Below are positions 882 through 7,479 of a stretch of DNA of 26,703 bases, one piece after another. The translations under genes were made by a program, and so were the position numbers. Within the stretch, counting starts at the first letter, position 1. Each line of letters opens with the position of its first letter. The notes under the pieces are model-generated. The model was given only the letters and a program-made list of their open reading frames with translations, ran no database searches and had not been told where the DNA came from. Source of the stretch: a virus; the IMG/VR virus record IMGVR_UViG_3300003702_000028, positions 1 to 26,703 of that record; one strand, 5' to 3'.

Positions 882-1019
882 ATGTATATAAGTGACAAGT
901 GGGCAATAATGATTGTAGCCGCCTTATGGGTGGCTGTGATTGCGGTTGCAGATATGAATTGGCCCCAGCACATGGGCCCGCAAAATGTCTTGATTGAGGC
1001 AATAGGGAATTTAATATGA
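882..1019 (+). CDS. 45-aa membrane peptide coupled to the AAA+ ATPase gene
   Basis: ATG 882 follows AAGGAATATCTAAT, a reasonable ribosome binding site, and lies 44 bases after the -10 box. The peptide (MYISDKWAIMIVAALWVAVI at the start) has one hydrophobic helix at about residues 8-23, then a polar tail rich in Asn, Gln and Pro. Its stop TGA (1017-1019) overlaps the ATG of the ATPase gene as ATGA, so the two are probably translated together. That position suggests a membrane partner or anchor for the ATPase/VWA pair, but this is inference. No family is recognised. Confidence 0.6.
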   Translation: MYISDKWAIMIVAALWVAVIAVADMNWPQHMGPQNVLIEAIGNLI

Positions 1020-2224
1020 AAGTTTGTAAAATGAATGCCAAACGAACCAACTTTGTAATTGCGGCTCGGGCATTACTTGGTGAACACAAAAGTGAGATCA
1101 CCCGTCCTGAGATATATGCGGTGCTCGAAGAAAACGAAAGCATGATGTTTCCCCAGTGGGTCGTCGGTCGTGAGTTTCGTACCGAGGTTCGTGGTGTCTA
1201 TTATCTGCCGTCGGCAGTAGGTCGCTACGAAACACTGGAAGAGTTCCGTGCAGCAAACCCCACTACTAAGGAAGTGGCTGTGCAATCTATGATTACATCT
1301 GAAGCATCGCTTGCATCGAGCATTAGTGTGATGGACAATCAAGAAACATATGTACCAGAAAAATATCTGGGTTATGTTCCTTGGGGTAACTTTAATGTCT
1401 TAAAGGATATTATTAAATCTGAAATTTTTTATCCTGTGTTTATTACTGGTCTATCTGGTAATGGTAAAACCCTGATGGTAAAGGAACTGTGTGCTCGCCT
1501 TAACCGTGAATTTGTCCGTGCGAACATCACCGTCGAAACTGACGAGGATGATTTGATCGGTGGCTTCCGTTTACTTAATGGTGAAACAGTGTGGCATGAT
1601 GGTCCTGTCGTGACCGCCATGAAACGTGGTTCGATTCTACTGCTTGATGAGATCGATCTTGCTTCTAATAAGATTATGTGCCTTCAGCCTGTTCTGGAAG
1701 GTTCGTCAATCTACCTGAAGAAGATCGGCAAGTGGGTACATCCAGCAGAAGGGTTTAACATTATTGCCACGGCGAACACCAAGGGACAGGGTTCTGAAGA
1801 TGGTCGCTTTATTGGTACTAACGTGATGAACGAATCATTCCTGGAACGATTTCCTGTTACGATTGAACAGTCTTATCCGACTGGGAAGATCGAGGAAAAG
1901 ATTCTTGTCAATGAATTGGCAAAACGAGATATCGTTGAAAAGTCATTTGTTGAGAATTTGGTCAAGTGGGCAGATGTAATCCGTAAGACATTCTACGAAG
2001 GTGGAGTCGATGAGATTATTTCAACCCGTCGCTTAGTACATATTGCTAATGCGTTTGGTATTTTCGAGGACAAAGTAAAGGCGATCACCATGTGCATCAG
2101 CCGATTTGATTCCGAAACTAAGGACTCGTTCCTTGATCTATATACCAAGATTGATGCAGGTATTGAAGTATCGGTAGTGGGAGCTGACGATGATGATGAT
2201 GATTATGATGAGGATGATTCATAA
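1016..2224 (+). CDS. cobS: MoxR/CobS-like AAA+ ATPase
   Basis: This 402-residue protein is an AAA+ ATPase of the MoxR/CobS kind. Walker A is GLSGNGKT (residues 145-152), Walker B LLLDEID (208-214), a sensor-1 Asn lies in IATAN (about 254), and ESFLERF (273-279) supplies a likely arginine finger. The stretch before Walker A (VPWGNFNVLKDIIKSEIFYP) resembles phage proteins annotated CobS. Residues 1-110 are an extra N-terminal region with no family I can name, and the C-terminus is a run of Asp and Glu. In cobalamin synthesis CobS works with CobT to insert cobalt. With no other cobalamin gene here, a general MoxR-type remodelling role with the next protein is more likely. It overlaps its neighbours by ATGA and ATAATG junctions. 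Confidence 0.9.
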   Translation: MKVCKMNAKRTNFVIAARALLGEHKSEITRPEIYAVLEENESMMFPQWVVGREFRTEVRGVYYLPSAVGRYETLEEFRAANPTTKEVAVQSMITSEASLASSISVMDNQETYVPEKYLGYVPWGNFNVLKDIIKSEIFYPVFITGLSGNGKTLMVKELCARLNREFVRANITVETDEDDLIGGFRLLNGETVWHDGPVVTAMKRGSILLLDEIDLASNKIMCLQPVLEGSSIYLKKIGKWVHPAEGFNIIATANTKGQGSEDGRFIGTNVMNESFLERFPVTIEQSYPTGKIEEKILVNELAKRDIVEKSFVENLVKWADVIRKTFYEGGVDEIISTRRLVHIANAFGIFEDKVKAITMCISRFDSETKDSFLDLYTKIDAGIEVSVVGADDDDDDYDEDDS

Positions 2225-4518
2225 TGGCAAGTGTAGCTAAAGATCAATTGGCCAAATTACTGGCTAAGGAAAATCTGTCAGTACGTCGAAGTGCAATGGC
2301 TCAGACAGCTTCCTTTGATCTAAACAGTCGGGTTCTTACTTTACCTATATGGGTTAATCGTAGTGGTCGTTCAACTACTCCTTTAAGTATGGAGGTTAAT
2401 GATATGATGACTGGTCACGAAGTTGGTCATGCATTGTATACTCCAAAGAACGGTTGGGAAAATGCTATTACGAAGGAAAAGGTAAATAAGAATGTCCTTA
2501 ATGTAGTTGAGGACGCTCGCATTGAAAGAAAAATTAAACGTACCTATCCAGGTATCGTTAAAAGTTTTTTGACTGGCTATAAAGAGTTAGTTCAAGCTGG
2601 CTTTTTTGGTGATGTATCTCCTTCGGAAATGAATATCATTGACCGACTGAATATGCATTTTAAATGTGGACTTCAAGCTGTTATTCCTTTTGAGCCGCAT
2701 GAAGAAAAATTTGTTACTTTGATGGAAGAAGCTGAAACCTTTGCAGACGCAGTTAGAGCTGCCAAGATTATACAGATGGCATATACAGAAGAAGAATGGT
2801 TAGAGGAAATGGAATCAAGCGACGAGGGTGAAGGTAGTCCTTGGGATAACCCAGATGACTTTCAACAATCCTTTGAGGACTCTGATGATGGGGACGACGG
2901 TGATGATGGAGACGATGATGATGACCTAGAAGAAGGTACATCAAATTTTCGTTCTGGCGATACCAGCGACTACGATCCCGACGATTTTGATGGAGAAGAA
3001 AAACATCAAATGAAAGATGATGAGGTTGTAACTGATAGTACATGGGAAGAGAAAAAGAAAGAATTATCAGATCCTAAAGCTAAAGAGTTAGTTTATTTTA
3101 ATCTACCTACTCCTAATTTAGATAGTTTAATAGTTCCATATAAAACTTTAATTCCGAGATTTGAGGAATTACTTCTCAAAGATGAGGAGCAGAGAAAAGA
3201 AGCCACTCACTCATGGATAAGTCCTTTAGATGTATCTAAAAAAGAATTTGCTACGTTTCGCAATTCTAGTTCTAAGATTGTCAATTACATGGTAAAAGAA
3301 TTTGAACGCAAAAAGTCTGCCGATGAATACCGTCGAGAAAGTATTTCTAAGACGGGTGTCATTGATGTAAACAAATTATATTCATACAAGTATAATGATG
3401 ATTTGTTTCTTAAACACACTTTGCGTCCAGACGGAAAGAATCATGGGTTAGTGATGCTTTTAGATTGGAGTGCTTCTATGTGTGGTGCCATGCAAGATAC
3501 TGTTAAACAATTATTGAATTTAGTATGGTTCTGTCAAAAAGTGAATATACCGTTTGAGGTATATGCTTTTAGTGCATCGTATACTGCTTCACGACGAAAA
3601 CACTTTTGGGATAATATTAAAGAAGATGAGGATACCGCAGAAGCATATCAGAAACTTTTTGCTGATGTGTGGAAGTGGAAAGAAACTGATCTGGCGATAA
3701 ATGACGAGTTTGCATTATTAAATCTCTTTTCCTCAAAAATGAGTGCTAAAGAAAATATAGCAATGAGCCGCACACTGTTTGTTGTTACCGATCGTCTACG
3801 AGCCAGCATTAGCCTAAGAGAATTAGATTTAAGTTCTACTCCTTTGATGGAAGCTTGTATTGCAATGCATGACATATTACCTAAGTTTAAGGCAGCGAAT
3901 AAATTGGATAAACTAAATCTTATCATCCTTACAGATGGTGAAGGTAATAGTACTCCCAATGGACTAATGTCAAGAATAGAAGGTAGTGAAGGTTTGGGTT
4001 GGGGAACGAAATGGGCAAAAGGTCTCAATAGTAATGTAACAGCTGCGGTATTTGAAGATCCCATAACTCGTAAAGTATATATGACTAAAGATTTTCAAAG
4101 AGGAAAGTTTTATAATTATTATAATAATGCTACGGCGTATGAGAATTTGATACTTACAGCATTGCGAGATCGCATGAATATAAACATCATAGGTATCTAT
4201 CAGATTGACTCGCATACTCGCACTATTCCTAAAAGATTGATGGAGAAATATTTAGGATGGTTTTCTTTTAACAAAGAACAACATAAAGCTTTGAGAAAGG
4301 AAGTACGGGTAGATGGAGTAGGTACAGTTTCGTCCCCTGGGTATGATGAGTATTATATAATCCCAACATCTACAATGCGACAGATAGATGATACACCTAT
4401 GTCCGGACTTACTAGTGATAGCTCGAAGGGTCAGATACGAAATGCTTTCCGCAAATCTTTAAATGCAAAGTTTGGTTCACGGGTACTTGTCGATCGGATG
4501 ATGAATTTGATAACTTAA
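2224..4518 (+). CDS. cobT: VWA/CobT-like protein with N-terminal HExxH motif
   Basis: This 764-residue protein starts at ATG 2224, on the last base of the ATPase stop codon. Residues 64-72 contain HEVGH (65-69), the zincin HExxH pattern, followed by NVVEDARIERKI (93-104), which could give a third metal ligand. This arrangement resembles the putative metallopeptidase region of VWA proteins encoded beside MoxR ATPases (DUF2201 type). Residues 199-268 are very acidic. A VWA domain follows with the MIDAS residues DWSAS (414-418), a likely Thr at 539 (SSTPLMEA) and ILTDGEG (568-574). Known MoxR/VWA pairs assemble or activate metalloenzymes and complexes; the target here is unknown. Its codon use is visibly more AT-rich than that of the ATPase gene. 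Confidence 0.85.
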   Translation: MASVAKDQLAKLLAKENLSVRRSAMAQTASFDLNSRVLTLPIWVNRSGRSTTPLSMEVNDMMTGHEVGHALYTPKNGWENAITKEKVNKNVLNVVEDARIERKIKRTYPGIVKSFLTGYKELVQAGFFGDVSPSEMNIIDRLNMHFKCGLQAVIPFEPHEEKFVTLMEEAETFADAVRAAKIIQMAYTEEEWLEEMESSDEGEGSPWDNPDDFQQSFEDSDDGDDGDDGDDDDDLEEGTSNFRSGDTSDYDPDDFDGEEKHQMKDDEVVTDSTWEEKKKELSDPKAKELVYFNLPTPNLDSLIVPYKTLIPRFEELLLKDEEQRKEATHSWISPLDVSKKEFATFRNSSSKIVNYMVKEFERKKSADEYRRESISKTGVIDVNKLYSYKYNDDLFLKHTLRPDGKNHGLVMLLDWSASMCGAMQDTVKQLLNLVWFCQKVNIPFEVYAFSASYTASRRKHFWDNIKEDEDTAEAYQKLFADVWKWKETDLAINDEFALLNLFSSKMSAKENIAMSRTLFVVTDRLRASISLRELDLSSTPLMEACIAMHDILPKFKAANKLDKLNLIILTDGEGNSTPNGLMSRIEGSEGLGWGTKWAKGLNSNVTAAVFEDPITRKVYMTKDFQRGKFYNYYNNATAYENLILTALRDRMNINIIGIYQIDSHTRTIPKRLMEKYLGWFSFNKEQHKALRKEVRVDGVGTVSSPGYDEYYIIPTSTMRQIDDTPMSGLTSDSSKGQIRNAFRKSLNAKFGSRVLVDRMMNLIT

Positions 4519-6542: not shown

Positions 6543-7394
6543 ATGACACAGTTAATAAACCCACAGCAATTCACTGATGTAGTGACCTCATTGAGGTCAT
6601 TTTTTTTATCTAGGGATTTTGTAGAAGTACATACACAAAACCGATTAAGTATTTTAGCAGCCTGCGAAGATCCAACAACAGTAGCAACATATGATTATGC
6701 AGGAGAGGTATGGCCTCTGCCACAAACAGGACAAATGTGGTTAGAATATGAATTGCTTAAGAGCCCCCAATCATCGGGGTTTTTTTGTGTCTCTACATCC
6801 TATAGACAAGAACCGCATATAGTAGAAGGAAGACATGATTTAATCTTTCCTATGTTTGAATTTGAGTTCCCAGGAACGATTGTAGAATTAGAACAATTAG
6901 AAAAGGATTTAATGGGACACCTAGGCTTTGGTACTAAGCATGGTGTAGTCGCTAAAGATTATCTAGAATGGTGTGAAGTATTTAATACAGAAGAACTTAC
7001 ACATGAACACGAAACCGCAATGTCGGAGAAATGGCAAGGTAGAGTTTGTATGATTAAAAACTTTCCTAATTACACTTCACCCTTTTGGAATATGAAACAA
7101 AATGGCGATGGGACTGCTGCAAAAATAGATGTTATCATATCAGGGCAAGAAACTATAGGTTCTGCTGAGCGTTCATCGGATACTGATGAAATGTGGAATA
7201 TGTTCCATACAATCAGTGACGGACTCTACGCTAATCTATTATATGAACAGTTTGGTAAGAATCGTGTGGAAAAAGAATTAAAAGATTTTTTGGACTTAGA
7301 TTTTATACCTAGAGTAGGTGGCGGCATTGGTCTAACACGTTTAATACGAGCCAATGAAGACTATAAGCTAAGACAAATTGTAGCGAATATGTAG
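6543..7394 (+). CDS. Class II (Asp/Asn-type) aminoacyl-tRNA synthetase-like catalytic domain
   Basis: This 283-residue protein matches the catalytic core of class IIb synthetases (AspRS/AsnRS) and the related stand-alone asparagine synthetases. Motif 1-like RSFFLSRDFVEVHTQ spans about residues 18-32; motif 2 is TSYRQEP (85-91) followed by GRHDLIFPMFEFE; IDVIISGQETIGSAER (195-210) matches the amino-acid and ATP pocket region; motif 3 is GGGIGLTRL (259-267). The N-terminal anticodon-binding OB fold of true AspRS/AsnRS (about 100 residues) is absent, so it cannot read an anticodon in the usual way. Either aminoacylation or Asp-to-Asn conversion is possible. Its last codon and stop overlap the tRNA at 7390-7479. 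Two terminator-like hairpins lie inside the coding sequence. Confidence 0.8.
   Translation: MTQLINPQQFTDVVTSLRSFFLSRDFVEVHTQNRLSILAACEDPTTVATYDYAGEVWPLPQTGQMWLEYELLKSPQSSGFFCVSTSYRQEPHIVEGRHDLIFPMFEFEFPGTIVELEQLEKDLMGHLGFGTKHGVVAKDYLEWCEVFNTEELTHEHETAMSEKWQGRVCMIKNFPNYTSPFWNMKQNGDGTAAKIDVIISGQETIGSAERSSDTDEMWNMFHTISDGLYANLLYEQFGKNRVEKELKDFLDLDFIPRVGGGIGLTRLIRANEDYKLRQIVANM
6583..6607 (+). terminator. Terminator-like hairpin inside the synthetase-like gene (1)
   Basis: TGACCTC (6583-6589) pairs with GAGGTCA (6593-6599), followed directly by eight T residues (6600-6607). It lies at codons 14-22 of the gene. The full 17 bases also form a perfect palindrome about T6591, so a protein-binding site is an alternative reading. 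Confidence 0.6.
6759..6786 (+). terminator. Terminator-like hairpin inside the synthetase-like gene (2)
   Basis: CCCC (6764-6767) pairs with GGGG (6776-6779), with AAGAG before and seven T residues (6780-6786) after, the standard layout of an intrinsic terminator. It lies at about codons 73-82 of the gene. Confidence 0.55.
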
Positions 7395-7479
7395 GGTGGC
7401 GGAATTGGTAGACGCACTAGACAGTTAATCTAGGGTCCTGTGGCGGGACGTGGTGGTTCGAGACCACCCCCTACAGCCA
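7390..7479 (+). tRNA. Chimeric tRNA: Leu-like body, Asn-type anticodon GTT
   Basis: The acceptor TGTAGGG (7390-7396) pairs perfectly with CCCTACA (7469-7475); discriminator G7476 and encoded CCA 7477-7479 follow. The D arm TGGCGGAATTGGTAGACGC is the tRNA-Leu hallmark, and the long variable arm (7434-7451, GTCC/GGAC) is class II type. However, the anticodon stem CTAGA/TCTAG encloses CAGTTAA, so the anticodon by position is GTT (Asn). This equals the usual Asn loop CTGTTAA with U33 changed to A. G73 and U1-A72 also match tRNA-Asn, while Leu tRNAs normally have A73. The T arm is GGTGG-TTCGAGA-CCACC. The gene overlaps the synthetase-like stop codon by 5 bases. Automatic tools may call it Leu, Asn or undetermined. 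Confidence 0.85.

Follow-up and report, generated by a model that had tools for sequence, protein, structure and literature searches.

A candidate pyrimidine-pathway enzyme derived from an asparaginyl-tRNA synthetase core, and its linked non-canonical tRNA in phages

A gene that encodes little more than the catalytic core of an aminoacyl-tRNA synthetase, and that ends inside a tRNA gene, raises the question of whether its product acts on that tRNA or serves another purpose. We addressed this question for the IMG/VR virus record IMGVR_UViG_3300003702_000028, of which the stretch of 26,703 nt analysed here is referred to as the window. A preliminary description had read the locus as a possible self-contained aminoacylation pair, with an asparagine synthetase next to an unrelated tRNA as the alternative. 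The locus comprises the following features:

6543-7394, plus strand: ORF from ATG to TAG, 283 aa, class IIb Asp/Asn-type catalytic core; candidate pyrimidine-pathway enzyme
6581-6607, plus strand: site 1, intrinsic-terminator-like hairpin (9 bp, 3-nt loop) with T-run, in the early coding sequence
6759-6786, plus strand: site 2, intrinsic-terminator-like hairpin with T-run, within the coding sequence
7390-7394, plus strand: 5-nt overlap of the ORF end with the 5′ acceptor strand of the tRNA (stop codon TAG at 7392-7394)
7390-7479, plus strand: class II tRNA with long variable arm, anticodon GUU, U1-A72, G73 and an encoded CCA (7477-7479)
7422-7428, plus strand: anticodon loop C-A-GUU-A-A, with A33 instead of U33

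Only one Pfam family matched the ORF over cut-off (PF00152, tRNA-synt_2 of D, K and N type, 5e-13), an NCBIfam profile search of the same ORF returned no family at cut-off, and the best PHROG match (29758, 6e-116) is a family without function annotation. The enzyme scored 30 bits against the profile of asparaginyl-tRNA synthetase (AsnRS; NF003037, cut-off 414) and 18.9 bits against that of asparagine synthetase A (AS-A; NF005055, cut-off 389). An AlphaFold2 model inferred from an 85-sequence alignment (pLDDT 94, pTM 0.91) was matched over residues 1-276 by the cores of AsnRS, AspRS and archaeal AS-A, the top structural match being human AsnRS with Asn-AMP (Z 27.0, rmsd 2.2, 248 residues), with archaeal AS-A at Z 24.1. 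Since the catalytic core uses residues 1-276 of 283, no stretch is left for an anticodon-binding domain, and in the model the enzyme is without the N-terminal OB-fold, as had been claimed from the sequence. The structure search also returned a protein of Pithovirus LCPAC304 (BFVD entry A0A481Z9R2) that shares 43% identity with the window enzyme, which extends the family to a giant eukaryotic virus.

The family shares with AsnRS the catalytic fold and motifs 2 and 3, including the motif 2/3 Arg of the class II catalytic core, as well as the Leu and the Glu that occupy the side-chain specificity positions, whose roles are general knowledge for class IIb enzymes. These residues, L67 and E106, are invariant and correspond in the alignment to Leu and Glu in AsnRS and to Lys and Asp in AspRS (the Lys falls opposite L67 after a 2-residue alignment gap is closed by eye), which suggests that the pocket likely fits Asn. 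However, unlike AsnRS, the enzymes lack the N-terminal OB-fold, carry PNPxPGRH instead of SRTRRH in the motif-2 loop, score far under the family cut-off and are operonic with pyr genes. Archaeal AS-A (3p8t) and bacterial AsnA are likewise standalone class IIb catalytic domains reused in small-molecule metabolism, but these bind Asp, whereas the present family has Asn-type residues, a pyrimidine context and only about 20% identity to them. The phage enzymes are very acidic (mean net charge -18), so a basic tRNA-binding surface was ruled out as support for a tRNA partnership, and the acidity does not favour tRNA binding.

To assess the pairing of gene and tRNA, we called tRNAs with a covariance model (R1) and by inspection in the 80 best of at least 592 IMG/VR relatives of the window enzyme, and found a partner tRNA just downstream of the gene in 62 of 78 assessable phage loci. 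The named relatives are encoded by the cyanophages P-SSM2, P-SSM5 and P-SSM7 (annotated as 'tRNA ligase', 60-61% identity), each with a tRNA directly 3′ of the gene. In the reverse direction, we searched for tRNAs independently of the gene, with a pattern that combines a Leu-like long-arm body and an anticodon region GTTTA, and obtained 120 matches. The enzyme gene lay upstream on the same strand in 107 of the 108 that were assessable, mostly at a distance of 9-100 nt and at no more than about 400 nt; the other 13 matches comprised 10 with at most 366 nt of upstream sequence, two that are not tRNAs and one exception. Linkage in both directions means that the window tRNA is not a chance neighbour of the gene. 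The exception, at 6635-6719 of phage contig L202, is a long-arm tRNA-Asn(gtt) with a GTTTA loop and no recognisable enzyme homologue within 13.8 kb. The 5-base overlap described earlier is present, and gene and tRNA also overlap in a near-identical relative (L006) and a more distant one (L057); in relatives they are usually about 10-100 nt apart, and the exact overlap is incidental.

The enzyme family corresponds to T4-GC 194, the 'tRNA ligase' of P-SSM2 and P-SSM7 (PMC3037559), which has the same adjoining tRNA; in the available part of that source it appears as a table entry with no function or tRNA link given. In the P-SSM2 genome (NC_006883.2), the annotated tRNA-Asn at 164094-164179 is about 2 kb off the real gene, which the R1 model places at 162083-162168, directly after the 'tRNA ligase' gene.

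ARAGORN identified the window tRNA as tRNA-Asn(gtt) at 7390-7479, and it scored 44.4 bits against Rfam RF00005 (cut-off 29) when this stretch was searched alone, the default search over the whole window having missed it. The Asn-type acceptor signals that had been noted (U1-A72 and G73) are present, and the tRNA is as unusual as described, with its long variable arm and A33. Among 39 distinct partner tRNAs, all have U1 and G73, nearly all have A72, and the anticodon is GUU or, in a few, GUC; CCA is encoded or host-added. A divergent phage clade has A1-U72. Every stem covaries, and of the 24 stem pairs 20 show double compensatory changes. Most partner tRNAs have a tRNA-Leu-like body with a long variable arm, some (L011, L014, L018, L032, L038 and L040) have another long-arm body, with the body swapped and Asn identity kept in L011, L014 and L032, and a few (L057, L069) are short-armed.

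The acceptor and anticodon features (U1-A72, G73, GUU) resemble those of the tRNA-Asn used in transamidation by a non-discriminating AspRS (nd-AspRS) and GatCAB, the bacterial form of which needs the U1-A72 pair (PMC4206432, PMC9976931). By contrast, the partner tRNAs combine them with a tRNA-Leu-like body, a long variable arm and a loop other than the canonical U33/A37 type, and nearly all of them are long-armed where translational tRNA-Asn has a short variable region.

While U33 is near-universal in tRNAs, position 33 of the 39 distinct partner tRNAs is U in 18, A in 17, C in three and G in one. Position 37 is U in 36, G in two and A in one, and is thus other than A in 38 of 39; the sole A37 belongs to the window type, where it is paired with A33. 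A canonical decoding loop with both U33 and A37 was found in none of the 39. The only tRNA gene of P-SSM2 is its partner tRNA, as also given in table 1 of PMC3037559, and the record of L017 carries both a partner tRNA and an ordinary tRNA-Asn. The loop features, the Asn identity and these two tRNA sets together suggest that the partner tRNA is recognised as an Asn/Asp type but not kept for decoding. Two further loci depart from the common arrangement. A 328-kb phage (L042) has an ordinary tRNA-Leu(UAA) at 3858-3944, where relatives carry the partner tRNA, and this is a possible source of the chimeric tRNA body. Just past the gene stop in L206, only TCCGGGG-T-CCCCCGGAGCCA stands in place of the tRNA, an acceptor-stem hairpin with CCA whose body is gone, which may be a deletion, an assembly fault or a real minihelix.

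When GTDB contigs were scanned, enzyme homologues (50-62% identical in most cases) turned up in Patescibacteria, Bacteroidota including Aureispira, Pasteurella atlantica, Midichloriaceae, Myxococcota, Dependentiae and other lineages. Of the 72 chromosomal (non-phage) loci that could be assessed, none has a partner tRNA next to the gene; four phage-like contigs in MAG bins (L210, L211, L213 and L285), which do carry one, were set apart as exceptions. A pattern search of 16 enzyme-positive cellular genomes found no partner tRNA elsewhere. We rejected the idea of a hidden copy in the tRNA-less cells: the best covariance-model matches were ordinary tRNA-Leu, and the GTY long-arm pattern gave a single, non-tRNA match by chance. 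About 20% of phage homologues are also without a partner tRNA, and in a FastTree phylogeny they are nested among the tRNA-bearing ones, with 10 label changes. Searches of the whole records of these phages detected a partner tRNA in one case only, some 240 nt downstream in the L066 record. Replacement of the tRNA by AsnB was rejected, as AsnB was over cut-off in none of 20 phage records. Because the tRNA is absent from cells and from some phages, it is not essential for the reaction, and the enzyme in general does not need it. The co-occurrence that the preliminary description had proposed to survey thus holds from tRNA to gene and, in most phage loci, from gene to tRNA, but fails on chromosomes. 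Homologues regularly found without a tRNA had been named there as evidence against a charging pair, and such homologues are what cells and a fifth or so of the phage relatives provide.

The chromosomal neighbourhoods of the enzyme point elsewhere. Operon-like orders include gene-pyrF-pyrE in P. atlantica, gene-pyrF-pyrE-pyrD-prs in Midichloriaceae and gene-pyrE/F-pyrD in Myxococcota, the identity of the pyr neighbours being confirmed by Pfam and NCBIfam. Pyr genes flank 24 of 73 chromosomal loci, and within sampled genomes they occur near the enzyme in 9 of 16 loci versus 0 of 38 control windows taken from those genomes (Fisher p ~2e-6 for 9 of 16; L353, the one control window with a hit, is the locus of the enzyme itself in Aureispira and was not counted). 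All 16 enzyme-positive genomes checked encode PyrF, whereas PyrB was over cut-off in none of them versus 14 of 14 control genomes, PyrC was over cut-off in none (no match at all in nine, sub-cut-off PyrC-like matches in five larger genomes) and CarB was found in two, in a sample whose CPR members are reduced or incomplete. P. atlantica has a second pyrF, located in the enzyme's operon, as expected for an acquired pathway segment in a PyrB-less family. Since PyrB is missing from all 121 Pasteurellaceae, this species is not an independent case, and mutual exclusion of the enzyme and PyrB inside the family is uninformative. In several phage lineages the enzyme gene adjoins pyrD or pyrE, in some with the tRNA on its other side, including loci ordered pyrD-gene-tRNA; among 50,697 phage records, the PyrE form seen there was found in none and the PyrD form in one. 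AsnB is already present in most enzyme-positive genomes.

The two hairpins within the gene provide a second, independent pointer to pyrimidine synthesis. Site 1 is present in 82 and site 2 in 75 of 103 dereplicated phage genes, both occur in 66, and only two cases lie elsewhere, compared with 2.5 ± 1.4 (site 1) and 5.8 ± 2.5 (site 2) of 103 expected from synonymous shuffling, which leaves the encoded protein and the codon usage unchanged. In the arms of site 2, compensatory changes of several pair types are seen. Internal hairpins also occur in 23 of 72 cellular genes versus 3.7 ± 1.9 expected, nearly all near the same two regions, and phage genes without the partner tRNA still carry them. Attenuation of Escherichia coli pyrBI relies on an intrinsic terminator within a leader gene of 135 bp; this terminator is active at normal UTP and suppressed when translation is coupled to transcription (PMC4824070, PMC5021804). 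Like it, the present hairpins have a U-run and lie in translated sequence close to the start, a position suited to control by ribosomes and UTP, but they differ in that two copies lie inside the enzyme gene itself rather than in a leader peptide. By analogy, they may be UTP-responsive attenuators.

Based on the pyr linkage, the missing PyrB and CarB and the internal attenuators, we propose that the enzyme very probably functions in pyrimidine synthesis, a role that the preliminary description had not considered. It would take the pathway position of CarAB, PyrB and PyrC, as implied by the linkage to pyrD, pyrE and pyrF and the absence of the former, although it has no sequence or fold relation to these enzymes and would need no carbamoyl phosphate. 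For the reaction, the role of the tRNA and the control by UTP, we infer the following. An enzyme derived from the AsnRS core would replace the early de novo steps and feed PyrD-PyrE-PyrF by activating asparagine with ATP to Asn-adenylate, which would react with CO2 to an N-carboxyanhydride-like intermediate. Attack of the side-chain amide on the carbamoyl carbon would close the ring and yield dihydroorotate with a free carboxylate, AMP and PPi; N1, N3, C4-C6 and the carboxylate would derive from Asn and C2 from CO2. This conversion of Asn, CO2 and ATP to dihydroorotate follows from chemical reasoning and is tentative, somewhat more doubtful than probable. The two early-codon terminators would be overcome when a ribosome closely trails a UTP-starved polymerase, as in pyrBI.

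In phages only, a tRNA of Asn/Asp identity (U1-A72, G73, GUU/GUC) with a loop unsuited to decoding would be added. Charging of this tRNA is most likely, perhaps by an nd-AspRS that loads Asp, which GatCAB would then amidate, and the charged tRNA could act as an Asn source where the host has none free, or as a partner of the enzyme, rather than in translation. That the tRNA is a functional partner outside translation is probable. Its supply of Asn through nd-AspRS and GatCAB is weighed against by the A1-U72 clade, which fails the GatCAB identity pair, and the long variable arm might clash with AspRS, which weighs against charging by that enzyme. With moderate confidence, we therefore interpret the whole locus as a phage-borne pyrimidine module composed of an AsnRS-derived enzyme, internal attenuators and an accessory tRNA. 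Its most specific form is doubtful, namely a carbamoyl-phosphate-free, one-step route to dihydroorotate in PyrB-less bacteria and hundreds of marine phages, with tRNA-borne Asp amidated to Asn as the phage substrate. Searches restricted to open-access papers yielded no description linking the enzyme family, the tRNA and pyrimidines.

It is unlikely that the enzyme serves pyrimidine synthesis while the tRNA is neither substrate nor donor, being instead a linked passenger or a regulatory or processing element, such as an RNase P cleavage site at the mRNA end, a binding site for the synthetase-like protein or an Asn sensor. That cells and some phages have the enzyme but no partner tRNA, that the protein is acidic and that tRNA-less phages keep the internal terminators would all fit this, but full tRNA features are under selection (nearly all stem pairs covary, and G73, CCA and GUU are maintained), and the body was exchanged in some phages (L011, L014, L032) while Asn identity stayed.

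More doubtful still is an orthogonal pair in which the enzyme would act through the acceptor end or long arm of the tRNA and load it with Asn or Asp for the translation of phage proteins. From the self-contained pair first proposed, the conserved pairing, with near-absolute linkage from tRNA to gene, the AsnRS-like fold and active-site residues and the conserved U1-A72, G73 and GUU all stand. However, the enzyme often occurs without the tRNA, the loops of all 39 distinct tRNAs lack U33 and/or A37, which argues against decoding, the L017 phage has an ordinary tRNA-Asn as well, some partner tRNAs (L057, L069) have no long arm, and the pyr linkage and attenuators would be left unexplained. Finally, an ammonia-dependent asparagine synthetase of the AsnA or archaeal AS-A kind beside an unrelated tRNA, the earlier alternative, is very improbable and was discarded as the main reading, since its nearly as close fold and its standalone catalytic domain of the same size are outweighed by AsnRS-type rather than Asp-type residues at both specificity sites, a score far under the AS-A cut-off, AsnB in most of the same genomes, and pyr operons and missing PyrB/CarB that it does not explain.

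Elsewhere in the window, an ORF at 154-441 has a C-terminus that resembles a SWIM zinc finger; its first part contains a tRNA-Gly(tcc) (159-232), and its true start is probably further downstream. ORFs resembling an AAA ATPase and a VWA-domain protein stand side by side at 1016-4518, presumably as in the CobS/CobT-like pair of marine T4-like phages. Between 12611 and 26455, several predicted virion proteins share a recurring module of roughly 60 aa, exemplified by INASVTTIPVAATDNLPTEGTIKLGTEEITYTGRS...TTAASH.

If the proposed pyrimidine module is correct, the opening section of one of life's most conserved pathways would exist in an unrecognised form, made from the core of a tRNA synthetase. 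Bacteria from several phyla that on paper seem to be pyrimidine auxotrophs would use it, and marine phages would export it. The module would also provide a case of a tRNA retained for metabolism rather than decoding, and of an attenuator written in an enzyme's own codons. For a gene family whose present labels are 'unknown function' or 'tRNA ligase', it makes a direct and cheap test available.
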